A DNA stretch of 64,000 nucleotides, taken from contig NZ_CP006271.1 in assembly GCF_000737595.1 (NCBI RefSeq), forward strand, positions 1 through 64,000, in the 5' to 3' direction. Origin of the DNA: Synechococcus sp. KORDI-52. GTDB taxonomy: Bacteria; Cyanobacteriota; Cyanobacteriia; PCC-6307; Cyanobiaceae. Shown here piece after piece: positions 7,728 to 40,767 of this stretch; position 1 is the first letter of the stretch; every line of letters begins with the position of its first letter. A program made the translations under genes and the position numbers. The notes under the pieces were generated by a model. It ran no database searches. It saw nothing but the letters and a program-made list of their open reading frames with translations, and was not told the origin of the DNA.

Positions 7728-8338
7728 TCGAACACCTCAACCCCTGCAGGAATCACAGCACCCCGTCGCACGATGCGCCACCGTCCATCCCCAACCCAGA
7801 CCAATACCGTGCTGGCCTGACCAGAGGCTTGACACCAGGGCTGAGGCCCCAGCTGAGCAACATCTGGGAAACTCAGCGCCGCCTCTGCCGCGGTCATACT
7901 GGCCGGCTCTCCGGAGAGATTGGCGCTGGTGGTGGCCAATGGTCCGCTGATCTGTAGCAATCCACGGGTCTGCTCACAGGCTGGAATGCGGCAGCCCAGC
8001 GTCGTACCGCCTGGGTTGAGATACCGCCCAGCTCCGCCATCACGGGCAGGCAGCACCAGGGTGAGCGCTCCAGGCCAGTAGCGCTCAGCCAAGGCTTCAA
8101 GCTCCCGATGGCACGGAACCGCAACTTCGTGAAGCAAGTCGTTCACTGATGCCCCCATCAAGATGAGGGGCTTATCAGCCGGTCGGCATTTCAGACGCCA
8201 GAGGGTCTGGGCTTGATCGGGAAGCACCGCCAGTCCCGGCAGGGTGTCGGTGGGAATGATGGCGGCTTCGCCGGCACGAAGCCGCAGCGCCAAATCGGTG
8301 GCGGCCAGAACCGGAGCAGGCACGAATCCTTCCTTCAT
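7724..8338 (-). CDS. tsaC: L-threonylcarbamoyladenylate synthase (YrdC/Sua5/TsaC family)
   Basis: Makes threonylcarbamoyl-AMP from threonine, bicarbonate and ATP, the first step of t6A37 modification of tRNAs reading ANN codons. The 204-residue protein carries the YrdC core: the PTDTLPGLA block near the N-terminus, the KCRPADKPLIL block, and SANLSGEPA for nucleotide binding. I choose ATG 8338, 13 bases after prmC; the longer frame would run into prmC. It lacks the extra C-terminal Sua5 domain. Part of prmC-tsaC-small membrane gene. Confidence 0.9.
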   Translation of the reverse strand: MKEGFVPAPVLAATDLALRLRAGEAAIIPTDTLPGLAVLPDQAQTLWRLKCRPADKPLILMGASVNDLLHEVAVPCHRELEALAERYWPGALTLVLPARDGGAGRYLNPGGTTLGCRIPACEQTRGLLQISGPLATTSANLSGEPASMTAAEAALSFPDVAQLGPQPWCQASGQASTVLVWVGDGRWRIVRRGAVIPAGVEVFE

Positions 8339-35074: not shown

Positions 35075-36004
35075 TTGAAGCGCACTGTGCTCCAAGATTT
35101 CACCGATGTCTCATCCATCAGCGAAAGCCAGCTCACGGAAGAAGAAGCACTCCAGCTCGCTGATGAGCTCAGTGCAAAATTAAGCGAAGGTGAGATCCCA
35201 AGATCTGATGCCGAGTCACTCAAGCGTATGGTCGCCGGACTTGGGGATGCGAGAGGCGCTTTACGACTCACCTTTGCAAAAAGTCTTGGGGCGGTTGGGG
35301 ACGAAGCTCTACCCATTCTTTGTAAAGCACTTCGCCAACACCAAAATGTGATCGTAAGACGAGCATCAGCCAAAACACTAAATTTGATTGGCAACAAGGA
35401 AGCGCTGCCTTATCTGCTTGAAGCCTTTTTAGAAGATGATGACCCAGTTGTTCTCGGTTCATCAGCTGGAGCGATGGCCACCATTGGACCGGATGCCATG
35501 GATTCACTGCTTGGAATCCTAAAAAATCCATACTGCACACCATTTCAGGTTGGATTAATCAATCTCGCACTAAGCTTCATCGGGTCTAAGGCACCAGAAG
35601 CTTTGCTGGAAGCTGCAGATTCAGACGTGGCTGAAGTTCGCGTAGCCGCAATTTCAGCATTGGGAGATCAAATACAAAAGAGTGATGATTTAAGAGCACA
35701 AAATAGAGTATTTCAGGCACTCGACGACATCTCAGCAGACGTCAGGGCAGAAGCGGTAACCCTTATCGGAAAATCATGTGATGCCGAAGATGTTGAAAAT
35801 TTGCTGAGCAGAAAGCTGGTCGATCAAGACACTCAAGTACGTAAAAATACAGCAATGGCGCTAATGAAACTCGAAGCATATAATGCCATAGAAAAAATAG
35901 AAGCTGCAAAGTTAACAGAAAAAGATGAGTCGGTTCAAGCAGTATTCAATGCTGCCATTAACATACTAAGTAGAGATTTGCAGGAGAAACAGGAAAGCGA
36001 ATAG
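35075..36004 (+). CDS. mpeU: Phycobilin lyase-isomerase MpeU
   Basis: A 309-residue HEAT-repeat protein of the E/F lyase clan (repeat units such as VIVRRASAKTLNLIGNKEAL and VRKNTAMALMKLEAY). The position directly after mpeC matches mpeU, reported as needed for full phycourobilin content in blue light. The start is TTG 35075 or GTG 35087; I cannot decide. Its far C-terminus is Lys/Glu-rich. The base composition is lower in GC than mpeC before it. Confidence 0.8.
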   Translation: MKRTVLQDFTDVSSISESQLTEEEALQLADELSAKLSEGEIPRSDAESLKRMVAGLGDARGALRLTFAKSLGAVGDEALPILCKALRQHQNVIVRRASAKTLNLIGNKEALPYLLEAFLEDDDPVVLGSSAGAMATIGPDAMDSLLGILKNPYCTPFQVGLINLALSFIGSKAPEALLEAADSDVAEVRVAAISALGDQIQKSDDLRAQNRVFQALDDISADVRAEAVTLIGKSCDAEDVENLLSRKLVDQDTQVRKNTAMALMKLEAYNAIEKIEAAKLTEKDESVQAVFNAAINILSRDLQEKQESE

Positions 36005-36090
36005 AGCATTCAGGAAAATAGCATTGGAAGAATGCTCAGACGAGCAAATCACACCTCCGCATAACACAAAGACAAGAAAGACCAGGCAAT

Positions 36091-36108
36091 TTGATAGGAA
36101 GTGGACAC
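36091..36108 (+). promoter_or_regulatory. Candidate Fci operator upstream of fciB
   Basis: TTGATAGGAAGTGGACAC, one of four copies of the pattern TGATAR-N5-GGACAY found in this island. It lies 87 bases after mpeU and 140 before the preferred fciB start. Protein binding is inferred. Confidence 0.5.
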
Positions 36109-36248
36109 TAAAAAGACAAAAGGCAATCATTCAGAAAAACATTAAGCTTCTTGCGCGCAACCAAGGAAAACCAATAGAGTATGAAAAATGCTCAAGAAGT
36201 TTGCGAAAAAAACGATCGCGCAATTATATTTTTTCCGACACGCTCGAG

Positions 36249-37232
36249 ATGGAAGAGTTTTGCAAGGCACATTTTGAAGAATATCACTCAACATCCAGCT
36301 TCGGATGCAATGTAACTCAGTTAAGCACCGGCCTTCTCGAAACGAAGACCACTTGCTCACCAATTCAAGATGTGCATCTTGAAATATTTAAATCAAACCA
36401 AACTCTGCTCTACGAGGAAGAAGCCAACACAAAATCAGTATCATTCTGCTGGCTAGACACATTACCGTCAAACGATGCGGAGGCACAGACCATCATTAGC
36501 GGCCACCAAATGACAAGAAATAGTATTGCTGGCTTCAATCGCATCAACAAAACAGGAGGAAATATCTGGGACATTGTGGGAGCAAACGAAGAGCTTTGCT
36601 GCATGAGCCTGAAATGGAATAAATTACAAGAAAGAATCAACAAATTGAATGCATTTAATGCCTATGCGAGGCTTGAGGAATGCATTGGAATTGACTCGCA
36701 TGATCATGCAAGTACTCAGCTCAAAAAAATAGTTAACCGACATTTTAATGGCCATCCATCAACGAAACCAAATTCATTTTACGATCTAGCAATCATATTC
36801 CTAGACAACGAAAACAATGAATCAAGCTACGATGCACATCGATGCGAATCAACGGATCTAATAGAAGATATGGTTAAACTGATTCACGAAGATAGGGCTG
36901 GCATGCCACCAATAACGCTTGACGAAATTACTGAATACTTGAATTCAAAAACAGAGTCTCTCAATACTATATGCCGAAAAATCTTTAATATGGATGTAAT
37001 TGAGCTTGTAAGAAGAGTTCGCCTAGAACAGACCCGCAAGGCTTTTTTAACTCCACATTCCTCAATAGGTCTCAAAGAGTTTACAAAAAAGAGAATAGCA
37101 CTTTACTACGGTTTTAAGAACTGGAAAAAATTTGAAGCCTCCTACTCCACATATTTTGGGGAATCACCCAGTCAAACAATAGATCGATCCAATAAGAATT
37201 TATATTCATTTAGTGCATGGCAGGGAGAGTAA
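36249..37232 (+). CDS. fciB: AraC-family regulator of chromatic acclimation, FciB-like
   Basis: A 327-residue regulator. The C-terminal 100 residues form an AraC/XylS double helix-turn-helix (LNTICRKIFNMDVIELVRRVRLEQ, then YYGFKNWKKFEASYSTYFGESPSQTI). The N-terminal half matches the next gene in blocks such as TLLYE and MTRNSIAGF, so they are paralogues. The frame is open upstream to a TTG at 36024, adding 75 very basic residues; alignment with the partner and the operator-like element at 36091 favour ATG 36249. The fciA/fciB naming is by neighbour order and could be reversed. Confidence 0.72.
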   Translation: MEEFCKAHFEEYHSTSSFGCNVTQLSTGLLETKTTCSPIQDVHLEIFKSNQTLLYEEEANTKSVSFCWLDTLPSNDAEAQTIISGHQMTRNSIAGFNRINKTGGNIWDIVGANEELCCMSLKWNKLQERINKLNAFNAYARLEECIGIDSHDHASTQLKKIVNRHFNGHPSTKPNSFYDLAIIFLDNENNESSYDAHRCESTDLIEDMVKLIHEDRAGMPPITLDEITEYLNSKTESLNTICRKIFNMDVIELVRRVRLEQTRKAFLTPHSSIGLKEFTKKRIALYYGFKNWKKFEASYSTYFGESPSQTIDRSNKNLYSFSAWQGE

Positions 37233-37235
37233 CAC

Positions 37236-38201
37236 ATGAAAACATCTATTGAATATCGTGATCCACTGGAGCTCTCTGAAGAGCTTGCGAAACTCGGTCA
37301 GCTTACAAAAATAACGCAACTGGAAGGTGGCAGTGGTTTCTATACTATGCAAGCAGAAAGTACTAATAAAGTCGCACTTGCAGAAATATCTGCCAACAAA
37401 ACATTATTGTACGAGGGGTGGGGCAATGGTGTAACTATAGATTTTAATTGGATTACGCCAAAAGCGAATACTCAAGGAGCCTTTGGCTATTGTGATGGAT
37501 TTAAGATGACAAAAAATAGCCTGGCTGGATTTGGCACGATTAATTCATTACCAGGAAATGCATGGGGAAAATATAACAACGAATGCTCTAGTACTGGTTG
37601 CATGCTTGAAAAGCAGCTCCTATTTGAATTACTCGAAAATTGCAAAGCATATGATGGACTTGAACGACTCACGGGTGAGCAGGGGATTTGTTGCAATAAT
37701 AAAGCTCTAAACCAACTTAAGAGATTAGCTGCCAGAGAAGTATCTACTGGAATTCAGAACCCAGAAAAATATTTCGATCTTGTAATCGCATGTCTAGAAG
37801 AGCCAATGACTGAGCAGAGCAGTGAAGATCCAAAACATATCGATCAATTAAGAGAAATCATTAATCTTGCACATAGTGAGAAGAGCATGGAATCCCCTCT
37901 GTCATTGCTTGAAGTATGCAAGTATATAAATACAAGCCAAGCATCATTATATCGCATATGTCAGGAGTACTTTGGAATGGGAATCATTGAATTGATGACA
38001 CAAATTAGACTTGAGGAATCCAGAAGAATTTTGCTTAACCAAGATGCTCGTCGGAAATTAAATCTATATTCCATACGAGATATTGCAATTAAATATGGGT
38101 TTAAACATCAAGGGAGATATGCACGGCGCTATTACACTGCATTCGGAGAACTTCCAAGTCAGACCATAGAACAGTCGAGAAGATATAGATTGCCAATATA
38201 G
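37236..38201 (+). CDS. fciA: AraC-family regulator of chromatic acclimation, FciA-like
   Basis: A 321-residue AraC-family protein starting three bases after fciB, with GGGAGAG six bases before its ATG. The N-terminal sensor-like half contains TLLYEGWGNG and MTKNSLAGFGTIN; the C-terminal DNA-binding domain contains SLYRICQEYFGMGIIELMTQIRLEE and IAIKYGFKHQGRYARRYYTAFGELPSQTI. Such tandem regulators control the type IV acclimation switch. It is convergent with the lyase gene (25 bases apart); a short TAGAAA/TTTCTA stem at 38214-38229 lies between them. Confidence 0.75.
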   Translation: MKTSIEYRDPLELSEELAKLGQLTKITQLEGGSGFYTMQAESTNKVALAEISANKTLLYEGWGNGVTIDFNWITPKANTQGAFGYCDGFKMTKNSLAGFGTINSLPGNAWGKYNNECSSTGCMLEKQLLFELLENCKAYDGLERLTGEQGICCNNKALNQLKRLAAREVSTGIQNPEKYFDLVIACLEEPMTEQSSEDPKHIDQLREIINLAHSEKSMESPLSLLEVCKYINTSQASLYRICQEYFGMGIIELMTQIRLEESRRILLNQDARRKLNLYSIRDIAIKYGFKHQGRYARRYYTAFGELPSQTIEQSRRYRLPI

Positions 38202-38226
38202 GTGCATTGCATCTAGAAATAATTTT

Positions 38227-39420
38227 CTATAGTTCACGCAAGACTTCCGCGCATGTCCATCGAAGTGGCTCCCAAGTGGATTTTAAAAGTAGAATTTCAA
38301 TATCACTACGACATTCCATTAAACCTAAAGTTAAACATCCCCAAGTCGCGGCTATTTTTGATTTTGCATACTGCGGAGCTGACTCCAATAATGATTCCTT
38401 TATTATATAAGATAATTCTGTTAGGCCGAGTTGAGACACCAAGCAATTTACTTGATAGTGAACACCATAATCAGAGCCATGATTGTCCCAAATGGACTTA
38501 ATTGCGTCAGTTACAGTTGAAGCTGGCCAACTCAATAAGGTCTTTGCACCAAAGTACTGGCGCTCTTCGTCTCTATGCCTAAGGAAATCGCAAACTTTTT
38601 CTAGATCATTTGGTGCATCAAATTTCTGCGTAAAATACAGATTTCGAGAATCATCCTTCAACATTTGATTGATTAATGCTCTTTGCGATTTAGTTTTAAT
38701 TTTAGGAGTCATCTTGAACGCACTTTTAGCTCTCAACGGCATTGACACCGCTGCTTTCGAAATACTTGACAAAAGAGAAGGGTCTCCAGCGTCACCAATA
38801 TCAATGACGGATGAACGTCTATGTATGACATTCAAATCATTGAGATGATTTTCAAGAATATGCAACTTACGCTTGTCATCTTCAACCCTTATTGAATAAG
38901 CGATTGATGCGCCATTAACCAATATATTTGGATTACTCTCTTGCTCGTGAATAATGCCATTACACTCATGCATCTCCAAACGAGTGAAGCATTGAATGGC
39001 AACACGCTTGAGTACATCGGAGCCATTTTGAATAATCTTCAAAAGAGATGATTTAAACTGAGCGTCAAGAGGTATACCAAAATTAATTAGCGTATCTACT
39101 GAATTCACAATCGTCTGCTCATCACTACTATGCATAGCTTCATAAATGGTTGGCAGAGTACTAAGGTCGCGACGACGCCCTAGCGCTTCAATGGACTTAC
39201 GACGCGTAATGGAATCGAAGATATTATCTCTATCCCCGGTAGCCGCTACGACTAATGCATCCAGAGAATCTCGTGAAGAACAAGCTCCCAACCGTGTTGC
39301 AGCTATATATTTGATGCCAGGATTATCAAGAGTACAAACATTTTGCGAAAGCAACTCAATTGCTTGCTGTTCACCCATCCATGAAAAGAGATTATCAAAT
39401 CGCTGTGAACTTGGCACCAT
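38227..39420 (-). CDS. mpeW: E/F-clan phycobilin lyase MpeW of the acclimation island
   Basis: A 397-residue HEAT-repeat lyase, paralogue of the gene at 31287 with conserved blocks in the same order (SITRRKSIEALGRR, VIDIGDAGD, HRDEERQYFGAKTLL, PQYAKSKIAATWGCLTLGL). In CA4-B strains the island lyase MpeW attaches phycoerythrobilin to Cys83 of MpeA in green light. The island position between mpeU and cpeZ supports MpeW over MpeZ, which belongs to the CA4-A configuration. The gene is AT-rich and convergent with the Fci regulators. Confidence 0.75.
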   Translation of the reverse strand: MVPSSQRFDNLFSWMGEQQAIELLSQNVCTLDNPGIKYIAATRLGACSSRDSLDALVVAATGDRDNIFDSITRRKSIEALGRRRDLSTLPTIYEAMHSSDEQTIVNSVDTLINFGIPLDAQFKSSLLKIIQNGSDVLKRVAIQCFTRLEMHECNGIIHEQESNPNILVNGASIAYSIRVEDDKRKLHILENHLNDLNVIHRRSSVIDIGDAGDPSLLSSISKAAVSMPLRAKSAFKMTPKIKTKSQRALINQMLKDDSRNLYFTQKFDAPNDLEKVCDFLRHRDEERQYFGAKTLLSWPASTVTDAIKSIWDNHGSDYGVHYQVNCLVSQLGLTELSYIIKESLLESAPQYAKSKIAATWGCLTLGLMECRSDIEILLLKSTWEPLRWTCAEVLREL

Positions 39421-39502
39421 GCAACATGCGTATATTCAATTTTTACAGAAAAAATGATCGGTAAATCCGATTTGGTAAGAAGTGACCCGAGCGGCAGAGG
39501 GA

Positions 39503-39520
39503 TTGATAATTAGTGGACAT
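39503..39520 (+). promoter_or_regulatory. Candidate Fci operator near mpeW
   Basis: TTGATAATTAGTGGACAT, 83 bases upstream of the mpeW start codon. It matches the copy upstream of fciB at 14 of its first 17 positions. Confidence 0.5.
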
Positions 39521-39721
39521 GTACTTTAAGAAGAATGAACCAACAAATTCAACGGTAGTACCAAGAACAATTTACTTCTAAATTCGAATCAATGAGTAAC
39601 TCTAATTGCCTTATAGGATCCAACCAAAACTTTCTATTGAGCCAGGGACCTTTTAGAAAAAAGATTCACTGGCATCAATGCTGTGTAACAGGACGCCGAG
39701 CCGTCAATAAGCAAAACAACC

Positions 39722-39760
39722 CTGATAAGAACCGGACACTTGCTGATAAGATCTGGACAT
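39722..39760 (+). promoter_or_regulatory. Tandem candidate Fci operator, 21-bp period
   Basis: Two direct repeats, CTGATAAGAACCGGACAC (39722-39739) and CTGATAAGATCTGGACAT (39743-39760), identical at 15 of 18 positions and spaced 21 bp start to start, two helical turns. This geometry is classical for AraC-family dimers. The second copy ends 14 bases before the Nif11 gene start. Confidence 0.6.
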
Positions 39761-39774
39761 TCCACTAATGCATC

Positions 39775-40119
39775 ATGTCTCGTGCTGAGTTTATCCGCTT
39801 TCTTCAGGTTCTAGAAGAAGACTCGTCGTTCAGATCCCTTTTCAAAGAAGCTGAGCCCGAGGAGATCCTCAAGCTCGCTGATCAACATGGATTTATCTTT
39901 TCTGATGAAATAAAAGGGCGTTTTCTTAATCGATGGGCAGGTGTATACTTCTGCCCTTTTGCCAATGATGTTGGGAGGTTGTGCCCCAAGATGGTGCCAG
40001 AAGGATTCAGTACTCTCCTTCACTATTCGCAGACAACATGCGCAAAAGATGACAAAGTAGAACGTTTTAATTTTCGCGCTGGAGGCTATTACAAAGGAGT
40101 CGAAACTGTACCTCGATAA
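39775..40119 (+). CDS. Nif11-domain protein of the acclimation island
   Basis: A 114-residue protein: an N-terminal Nif11 domain (EFIRFLQVLEEDSSFRSLFKEA, EEILKLADQHGFIFSDEI) followed by about 65 residues not seen in typical Nif11 leaders (NRWAGVYFCPFANDVGRLCP). CA4 islands are known to contain a small gene of unknown function next to the lyase and regulators, and this is probably it. The tandem operator-like repeat directly before the ATG suggests direct control by the Fci proteins. Convergent with cpeZ. Confidence 0.7.
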   Translation: MSRAEFIRFLQVLEEDSSFRSLFKEAEPEEILKLADQHGFIFSDEIKGRFLNRWAGVYFCPFANDVGRLCPKMVPEGFSTLLHYSQTTCAKDDKVERFNFRAGGYYKGVETVPR

Positions 40120-40128
40120 AAATATAAT

Positions 40129-40767
40129 CTAACGCTTTGAATTGAGCAGATTCTGAAGTCGTGCCAATGCGGACTGTGCAGCCTCCTGAATCAAGGGATC
40201 AGCATTGTTGTTCTGCAGTGACCTTAATGCATCCTCTGCCATAGGATTTGGAATATCGGCAAGAGCCTGAGATGCACTGAAAATCAGAGCAACATTTTGG
40301 CTGCAGAGAGACTTGGCCAAAATCTTGATTGCCTCTTCAGACTTGAATTGTTGCTTACCGATCTGACCAAGACACATCAACGCACCCTGCACGACAACCA
40401 TATCGGAATCATCAATCCCTTGTTCCAGCATTTGTATGACGGAATCAGGAAATGGCTGATCAGGAAAATTTTTGAACACTTGCACGAACGCTTTGGGGCA
40501 ACAACGCCTTGCAGTTTGATTGGCTGTTGTTGCATAAAGTTCGATCAAAGGATCGAATGCATCACTTCCAAAGAAACCAATGCCTTTAACAGCAGCTCTG
40601 TAAACTTTAGGATCATGATGACAAAACAGATCTAACAATCTTGGCAATGCTTCTTCCCGGTAATTCTCAGAAAGAACCAAACATGCTTCTTCTTGAATCC
40701 TAGGATTAGGATGCATTAGGTCTTCAAACAGTGCATCAACTGAAGGAATGCTGGAATCGCCGCTCAC
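40129..40767 (-). CDS. cpeZ: Phycoerythrin lyase or chaperone subunit CpeZ
   Basis: A 212-residue HEAT-repeat protein of the E/F lyase clan, built of about five units (EEACLVLSENYREEALPRLL, YRAAVKGIGFFGSDAFDPLI and so on). CpeZ assists CpeY in attaching phycoerythrobilin to Cys82 of CpeA and has been described as chaperone-like. It begins with GTG 40767, 72 bases after cpeY, in the usual cpeY-cpeZ order. Confidence 0.82.
   Translation of the reverse strand: MSGDSSIPSVDALFEDLMHPNPRIQEEACLVLSENYREEALPRLLDLFCHHDPKVYRAAVKGIGFFGSDAFDPLIELYATTANQTARRCCPKAFVQVFKNFPDQPFPDSVIQMLEQGIDDSDMVVVQGALMCLGQIGKQQFKSEEAIKILAKSLCSQNVALIFSASQALADIPNPMAEDALRSLQNNNADPLIQEAAQSALARLQNLLNSKR

Follow-up and report, generated by a model that had tools for sequence, protein, structure and literature searches.

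How do the AraC-type regulators FciA and FciB find the genes that they control? In the portions of the literature covered, neither the DNA-level control exerted by these proteins in type IV chromatic acclimation nor the opposite light responses of the two kinds of island that encode them is explained. The question was examined in a 64,000-nucleotide stretch of Synechococcus sp. KORDI-52 (contig NZ_CP006271.1, positions 1 to 64,000; hereafter the window), which carries an acclimation island of the CA4-B type. A sequence-only reading of the window had proposed that a short repeated element, TGATAR-N5-GGACAY, is an operator for the Fci proteins. Our analysis suggests, with a probability of roughly three in four, that the AraC/XylS-type regulators of the island bind the element and that its direct reader is most probably FciB, which would act as the green-light factor in islands of both types. 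We infer binding by FciB from the sequence of the element, its conservation, its confinement to the island, its covariation with fciAB (clear at the copy before fciC, partial at those before unk10), and the residues of FciB itself.

A repeated element within the acclimation island

Four copies of TGATAR-N5-GGACAY, each with 0 mismatches, lie on the + strand of the window: one upstream of fciA (site 1), one near mpeW (site 2), and a tandem pair before unk10 (sites 3 and 4; Table 1). They start at 36092, 39504, 39723, and 39744, one base later than first described; the 21-bp period of the pair and the 83 bases between site 2 and mpeW had been given correctly. The gene behind site 1 is fciA and not, as had been supposed, fciB. 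The proposed confinement of the element to the island holds throughout the genome, a single contig of 2,572,069 bp. Rather than many equal matches spread across the genome, the strict pattern has four, all in the island, with 0 on the other strand and 0 for a reversed control pattern. When two mismatches are allowed, the window yields 5 matches as compared to 10.6 ± 3.75 in shuffled sequences; because this count falls below that of the shuffles, the four copies are not simply the best members of a large set of near matches. With a weight matrix derived from the island sites, these four included, the copies score 20.7–22.0, and the best score anywhere else in the 64 kb is 10.3. The maxima of the same matrix in 20 simulated windows are 10.2–19.4.

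Comparison across islands shows that GGACAY was too narrow a description of the 3′ box, which is GGAYA, with GGATA commoner than GGACA. The consensus, class-weighted over islands, is YTGATAAGAANYGGAYA. In the genome, the corresponding relaxed pattern, TGRTAR-N5-GGAYA, is matched perfectly at 5 places, of which 4 are the island sites; its reversed control also has 4 perfect matches. With one mismatch, it matches 83 places in the genome and 0 in the window. Outside the island sites, the window is free of relaxed-pattern matches at one mismatch or fewer, a result that covers mpeBA, mpeC, cpeC, cpeBA, and rpcBA only insofar as they lie in the window, these genes not being separately annotated. The striking feature is the clustering of the matches, not their number. 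A scan of 400 genomes of the family found the strict pattern in at least 131, many of them in genera without an FciB match.

A weaker fifth copy stands before site 2 (Table 1). Taken alone in the window, it scores 8.1 with the matrix, no better than chance places. A leave-one-class-out matrix, however, peaks at offset −31 with a z of 3.7, and the block is kept in all nine close CA4-B islands defined below. A TTAAGAAG block that follows site 2 by 20 bp was considered as a further copy and set aside as unsupported (matrix z of 1.9).

Conservation and loss across genomes

Islands were taken from 34 genomes of the genus, 400 genomes of the family, and one named contig (L037). The 29 islands compared comprise 10 of type CA4-B, the window included, and 19 of type CA4-A. 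Nine of the CA4-B islands are close (the window, L110–L116, and L037), whereas the tenth, L122, comes from another genus and has an FciB at 58%. Two CA4-A islands, L121 and L129, have no mpeZ in the fetched stretch and are counted because their fciB–fciC part is present; mpeZ is visible in the other 17. L137, with remnants of fciA and fciB, was not counted as an island, and L145–L147, which have a CA4-A-type unk10 and no fci genes, fall outside the counts. At a threshold of 1e-30, 29 of the 400 family genomes have an FciB match.

The sequence-only reading had looked to other CA4-B islands for a decision, and there the element is present. All four positions are kept in 9/9 close islands, and 34 of the 36 sites are perfect for TGRTAR-N5-GGAYA. 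Site 2 is found in all nine, perfect in seven and with one mismatch in L115 and L037; the unk10 pair is perfect, at its 21-bp spacing, in every one. In L122, whose pair was excluded from the matrix and from the 36-site count, the unk10 pair is kept at a spacing of 20 with one mismatch in one copy, and it lies 75–95 bp from mpeW. A pattern and matrix scan of the L122 island found no recognizable site before fciA.

The element is also present in the CA4-A islands, which occupy other places in the genome (Humily 2013, PMC3877281) and have a different gene order, with a reversed unk10 followed by fciA, fciB, fciC, and mpeZ. Exactly one perfect copy occurs in each of the 19 between unk10 and the end of mpeZ (to 1.5 kb past fciB in the two without mpeZ). 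This copy lies on the strand opposite to fciAB and starts 79–93 bases before the fciC start codon. Its scores of 19.9–25.9 compare with at most 11.5 for the next best place in the fciB–mpeZ gap and at most 9.1 in the unk10–fciA gap. Information amounts to 1.93 bits per core position versus 0.54 and 0.34 bits in the flanks. A matrix derived from the CA4-B sites alone scores the 19 CA4-A sites at 18.1–25.6; FciA and FciB are only 49–56% identical between the island types (13 aligned sequences of each).

Genomes that lack fciAB allow the dependence of the element on these genes to be assessed. Five such genomes (L160 and L166–L169) have unk10, fciC, and mpeZ in a row with no fciAB between them, and none is among the 29 genomes with an FciB match; L172–L175, which have distant fciC-like matches, were excluded from this set. 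The copy before fciC is broken in all five, with 2–4 mismatches. The G of TGATAR is lost in five of five and the last A of GGAYA in four of five, while the neighboring GCTTTGTAAACTGA-like block is kept. Fisher's test on the fciC site (19/19 in CA4-A islands versus 0/5) gives p = 2.4e-5 with kinship ignored. The unk10 pair can be followed in seven fciAB-less genomes that have unk10 between mpeU and cpeZ. With a full pair defined as both copies at a matrix score of at least 14, which excludes the single copy in L142, the count is 10/10 versus 2/7 (Fisher p = 0.003, kinship again ignored).

Placement of the relaxed pattern was followed through the 34 genomes of the genus. The 8 CA4-B genomes have 37 matches, of which 31 are conserved island positions, 1 lies inside mpeW, and 5 are elsewhere. 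The 5 CA4-A genomes have 12 matches, 5 of them being the fciC site, and the 21 genomes without fciB have 34, including 2 at unk10. Here again it is the placement that is unusual, not the number. No further target common to CA4 genomes was noticed in this 34-genome listing, in which the outside matches were not all examined.

Several blocks near the sites were noted along the way. In CA4-B islands, a TTAAGCTTCTT block is found downstream of site 1. Next to the CA4-A element is a TTAAGCTTCGTAAAGC-like block (in L119, read fciA-forward, at 7932-7947, with equivalents in other islands), whose distance from the element takes two values that differ by about 11 bp between subgroups. A block search covering 7 of the 10 CA4-B and 8 of the 19 CA4-A islands gave 0 mismatches in L119, 3 in L123 and L133, and 4–5 in the other 12. 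A TTAAGCTT-like block was tried as a degraded CA4-A copy with 21/32-bp phasing and rejected; the matrix does not support it, and a similar block persists in the five fciAB-less genomes. In L122, a good copy of the element, TGGTAAGATTTGGATA (L122:232-247, score 19.1), is oriented with an mpeY/mpeQ-like lyase gene and stands 86 bases ahead of the first ATG of that gene. This competing lyase may be an extra target in the L122 lineage.

The probable reader of the element and its proposed mode of action

The element has the build of an AraC/XylS-type operator: a regulator of that family is encoded alongside, and each site has two boxes about one turn apart. TGATAR and GGAYA start 11 bp apart, or one helical turn, which fits a protein whose two helix-turn-helix (HTH) motifs touch neighboring major grooves. 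AraC half-sites are direct repeats about 21 bp apart, with two HTH contacts per site. The island repeats resemble them in the roughly 21-bp direct repeat and differ in sequence. XylS places two recognition helices on tandem TGCA-N6-GGNTA repeats (PMC5481539, PMC4225500), and its promoter-proximal site overlaps the −35 box (PMC5481539, PMC4225500, PMC1360089). The boxes of the Pm promoter on the TOL plasmid pWW0, TGCAAGAAGCGGATA and TGCAAAAAATGGCTA, are 21 bp apart, and the distal box and the commonest CA4-B site, TGATAAGAAGCGGATA, have AAGAAGCGGATA in common. The XylS/Pm operator thus matches the island sites in its two boxes per site, its 21-bp direct repeats, this shared sequence, and a two-HTH protein related to FciB. 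The strict XylS box is nonetheless absent. The element reads TGAT-N7-GGAYA, with TGAT in place of TGCA in box A and one base more between the boxes. Spacing also differs, in that the 21-bp repeat is found only at unk10; the mpeW copies are 31 bp apart, and the fciA site and the one CA4-A site, at fciC, are single by the matrix. In addition, the sites at the lyase gene are inverted relative to that gene. No Fci DNA site is described in the parts of Humily 2013 (PMC3877281) that were available, and none was found described in a literature search whose reach did not extend to Sanfilippo 2016.

Which of the two Fci proteins reads the element was examined through their likeness to XylS. BLASTP matches to XylS reach 3e-14 for FciB, over the DNA-binding domain, and 8e-8 for FciA. 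At the equivalents of XylS 242, 246, 296, and 299, which we take to be DNA-contact residues, FciB has A, R, R, and R in 29/29 islands. FciA varies at these four positions both within and between island types, although its weaker alignment makes the positions less certain. Residues of HTH1 and the sequence of box A both differ from XylS, while HTH2 keeps the R at 296 and box B keeps GGATA. An invariant element therefore appears to go with an invariant FciB surface, and because the contact-equivalent residues are constant in FciB and variable in FciA, FciB is the likely reader. The predicted structure of FciB is poor (mean predicted local distance difference test score, pLDDT, of 48) and was not used; the FciA model is moderate (74). 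Foldseek ranks AraC-family proteins first with low whole-chain template modeling (TM) scores (0.22–0.28), which supports the fold only. The original proposal of an Fci operator is thus upheld in one part and narrowed in another. Conservation in both island types, confinement, and decay of the fciC copy without fciAB strongly support an island-specific operator, and in place of both Fci proteins the evidence favors FciB.

These comparisons allow us to propose a mechanism. FciB would bind the element in green light in both island types, and the 21- and 31-bp spacings between copies would let additional monomers bind along the same helical face. In CA4-B islands, FciB on the sites upstream of the mpeW promoter (the 31-bp pair) would switch mpeW on, and FciB on the site before fciA would tune fciAB. 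In CA4-A islands, the single site would lie on the fciC–mpeZ promoter, where bound FciB would shut mpeZ off in green light. FciA would oppose FciB, either by competition or by forming inactive mixed dimers. The unk10 pair may likewise lie in a repressing place, or it may act on mpeW from a distance. In the published measurements, mpeW is up 36–1150-fold in green light and mpeZ 6.7–333-fold in blue light (Humily 2013, PMC3877281), and each island encodes one activator and one repressor (PMC9705338). Most CA4-A islands have a TARAAT-like sequence about 7 bp after the site. If this sequence, picked by eye, is guessed to be the −10 box, the site would span roughly −35 to −20, where a bound protein would repress. 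The strain BIOS-E4-1, which has unk10–fciC–mpeZ without fciAB, is locked in a blue-light phenotype (Humily 2013, PMC3877281; PMC9705338), and such a state agrees with a promoter that is independent of an Fci activator. Activator placement like that of XylS at Pm seems plausible for fciA and mpeW, though not for unk10. Accordingly restricted, the autoregulation proposed earlier is possible through site 1 in CA4-B islands only, the unk10–fciA gap being without a site in 19/19 CA4-A islands. For the control of unk10 that had also been proposed, the place of the unk10 pair does not suit a classical upstream activator.

A broader scheme, which we put forward tentatively and judge to fall somewhat short of even odds, is that one ancestral FciB operator serves both island types. 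The opposite light response would then be set by the place of the operator relative to the promoter, and not by a different sensor or by fciC, in a closed circuit with essentially no other genomic site. The same puzzle has been addressed by the suggestion that fciC causes the opposite response (PMC10904595); operator placement would be an alternative without need for fciC. A 16-bp candidate operator would open Fci control to short DNA probes and single promoter mutations, and it would explain how all of the regulation can travel along with a small transferred island. The element could also serve to mark islands in which Fci control persists, as a check on natural strains that do not acclimate, for example.

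Several observations weigh against an operator read by FciB. The assignment comes from comparison of sequences. The flanks of the CA4-B sites are also fairly conserved, at 1.0–1.5 bits versus 1.8–1.9 in the core, so that the contrast between core and flank rests mainly on CA4-A. Summed over the 34 genus genomes, the relaxed pattern has 83 matches and its reversed control 109, with no numerical excess. Within the 19 CA4-A islands, no site precedes unk10 or fciA (best score 9.1), and a second conserved block is not a copy of the element and persists without fciAB. Work by Sanfilippo in 2016 reportedly found three island genes to be co-regulated by FciA and FciB; if so, the site-less unk10 of CA4-A needs another explanation. 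The unk10 pair of CA4-B ends 15 bp before the start codon, too near for classical activation, and a promoter consensus scan gave 14 hits versus 11.2 ± 3.7 in shuffles, which is no excess and leaves the promoter elements as guesses.

The genomes without fciAB add further cautions. The five with fciC look related and probably reflect one loss event. BIOS-E4-1 also lacks mpeY (PMC9705338), and the loss of mpeY alone may explain its blue state. In the set with unk10 between mpeU and cpeZ, the near-identical L139 and L140 have one perfect and one one-mismatch copy before unk10, and L142, a 68%-complete genome, has a one-mismatch copy at the place of site 4. L143 and L144 retain box A alone, and L138 and L141 show no trace of the element before unk10. 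In most fci-less genomes the unk10 pair has thus decayed or disappeared, but the pattern is not clean, and this is the main result against strict Fci dependence. The copies in L139, L140, and L142 are either relics or sites of another reader.

The closest alternative shares with the FciB assignment the premise of an Fci operator. It holds that FciA and FciB both bind the element and compete, their ratio setting the blue/green switch. Both proteins belong to the AraC type and differ between island types to about the same degree, their genes are adjacent in 29/29 islands, and tandem copies leave room for mixed occupancy; the FciA:FciB ratio is said to be stressed in the 2016 work by Sanfilippo. 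The contact-equivalent residues of FciA, however, vary while the element stays constant, and the FciA match to HTH_18 falls just under the Pfam cut-off. We regard joint binding as possible, if the less probable arrangement. It appears unlikely that the element is instead an alternative promoter element, or the site of a third regulator that is not part of the island, and serves island genes by chance. Three of the seven fci-less genomes (L139, L140, and L142) do keep a full or one-mismatch copy before unk10, and the L142 copy makes this explanation slightly stronger and FciB reading slightly weaker. An outside regulator is difficult to reconcile with the absence of the strict element from the rest of the genome and with a broken fciC copy where fciAB is lost. 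Occurrence in both orientations and at varied gene distances is unlike a core promoter.

Two further explanations are much less probable. Action in RNA, as a leader structure or anti-terminator, would accommodate the position of the unk10 pair just 5′ of the start codon and a terminator-like hairpin in the mpeW leader. Yet the element has the sense orientation at unk10 and fciA and the opposite one at mpeW and fciC–mpeZ, so a single RNA element cannot explain all copies, and we consider this mode of action very improbable. That the copies have no function and were left behind by a mobile element or a local duplication is harder still to credit. Two copies are in tandem and the locus is a genomic island, but the copies are alike in their boxes and not in their flanks, and conservation in CA4-A falls on the boxes (1.93 versus 0.34–0.54 bits).

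Genes of the island and minor observations

The gene content, order, and place of the island are those of CA4-B in Humily 2013 (PMC3877281): mpeU, two AraC-type genes, a lyase gene on the opposite strand, unk10, and cpeZ. The island lies between mpeU and cpeZ, has fciA followed by fciB, mpeW on the opposite strand, and unk10 downstream, and is without an fciC match. Positions are collected in Table 1.

Table 1. Genes of the KORDI-52 island and copies of the candidate operator, in window coordinates.
Feature	Positions	Strand	Remarks
mpeU	35075..36004	+	left island border (CA4-B); named by position
site 1, TGATAGGAAGTGGACA	36092..36107	+	93 bases from its end to the fciA TTG; perfect in 9/9 close CA4-B islands
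fciA, AraC-type regulator	36201..37232	+	TTG start; HTH_18 32.8 bits, below the Pfam cut-off of 33.6
fciB, AraC/XylS-type regulator	37236..38201	+	proposed reader of the element; HTH_18 55.4 bits; BLASTP to XylS 3e-14
mpeW, E/F-type bilin lyase of CA4-B islands	38227..39420	-	named by place and orientation in Humily 2013
weaker fifth copy, TGGTAAGAAGTGACCC	39473..39488	+	precedes site 2 by 31 bp, or three helical turns; orientation opposite to mpeW
site 2, TGATAATTAGTGGACA	39504..39519	+	inverted relative to mpeW; 83 bases before the mpeW start codon
site 3, TGATAAGAACCGGACA	39723..39738	+	first copy of the tandem pair preceding unk10 (21-bp spacing)
site 4, TGATAAGATCTGGACA	39744..39759	+	second half of the pair; 15 bases from its end to the unk10 start codon
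unk10, Nif11-domain protein	39775..40119	+	protein of unknown function
cpeZ	40129..40767	-	right island border (CA4-B); named by position

The hairpin in the mpeW leader, followed by a T run, lies at 39457-39471 on the - strand, and a scan puts it at chance level. Between unk10 and cpeZ, where none is reported in the window, three other genomes have a weakly lyase-like coding stretch (24–26%), at L143:4367-4960, L144:4332-4925, and L122:9045-9713. The L137 remnants (L137:5136-6156, from a g34 genome) consist of degraded fciA and fciB and an fciC-like gene, with no perfect element before the fciC-like frame.

The first AraC-type gene of the window encodes FciA, with 343 residues from the TTG at 36201, and the second encodes FciB, with 321. 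The Fci proteins of RS9916 have 342 and 316 residues (Humily 2013, PMC3877281), and the CA4-A orthologues of fciA have an ATG at the place aligned with this TTG. The fciA frame is open farther upstream, to 36024, across site 1 (36024-36200). Automatic annotation may thus set the fciA start too early and bury site 1 inside the gene.

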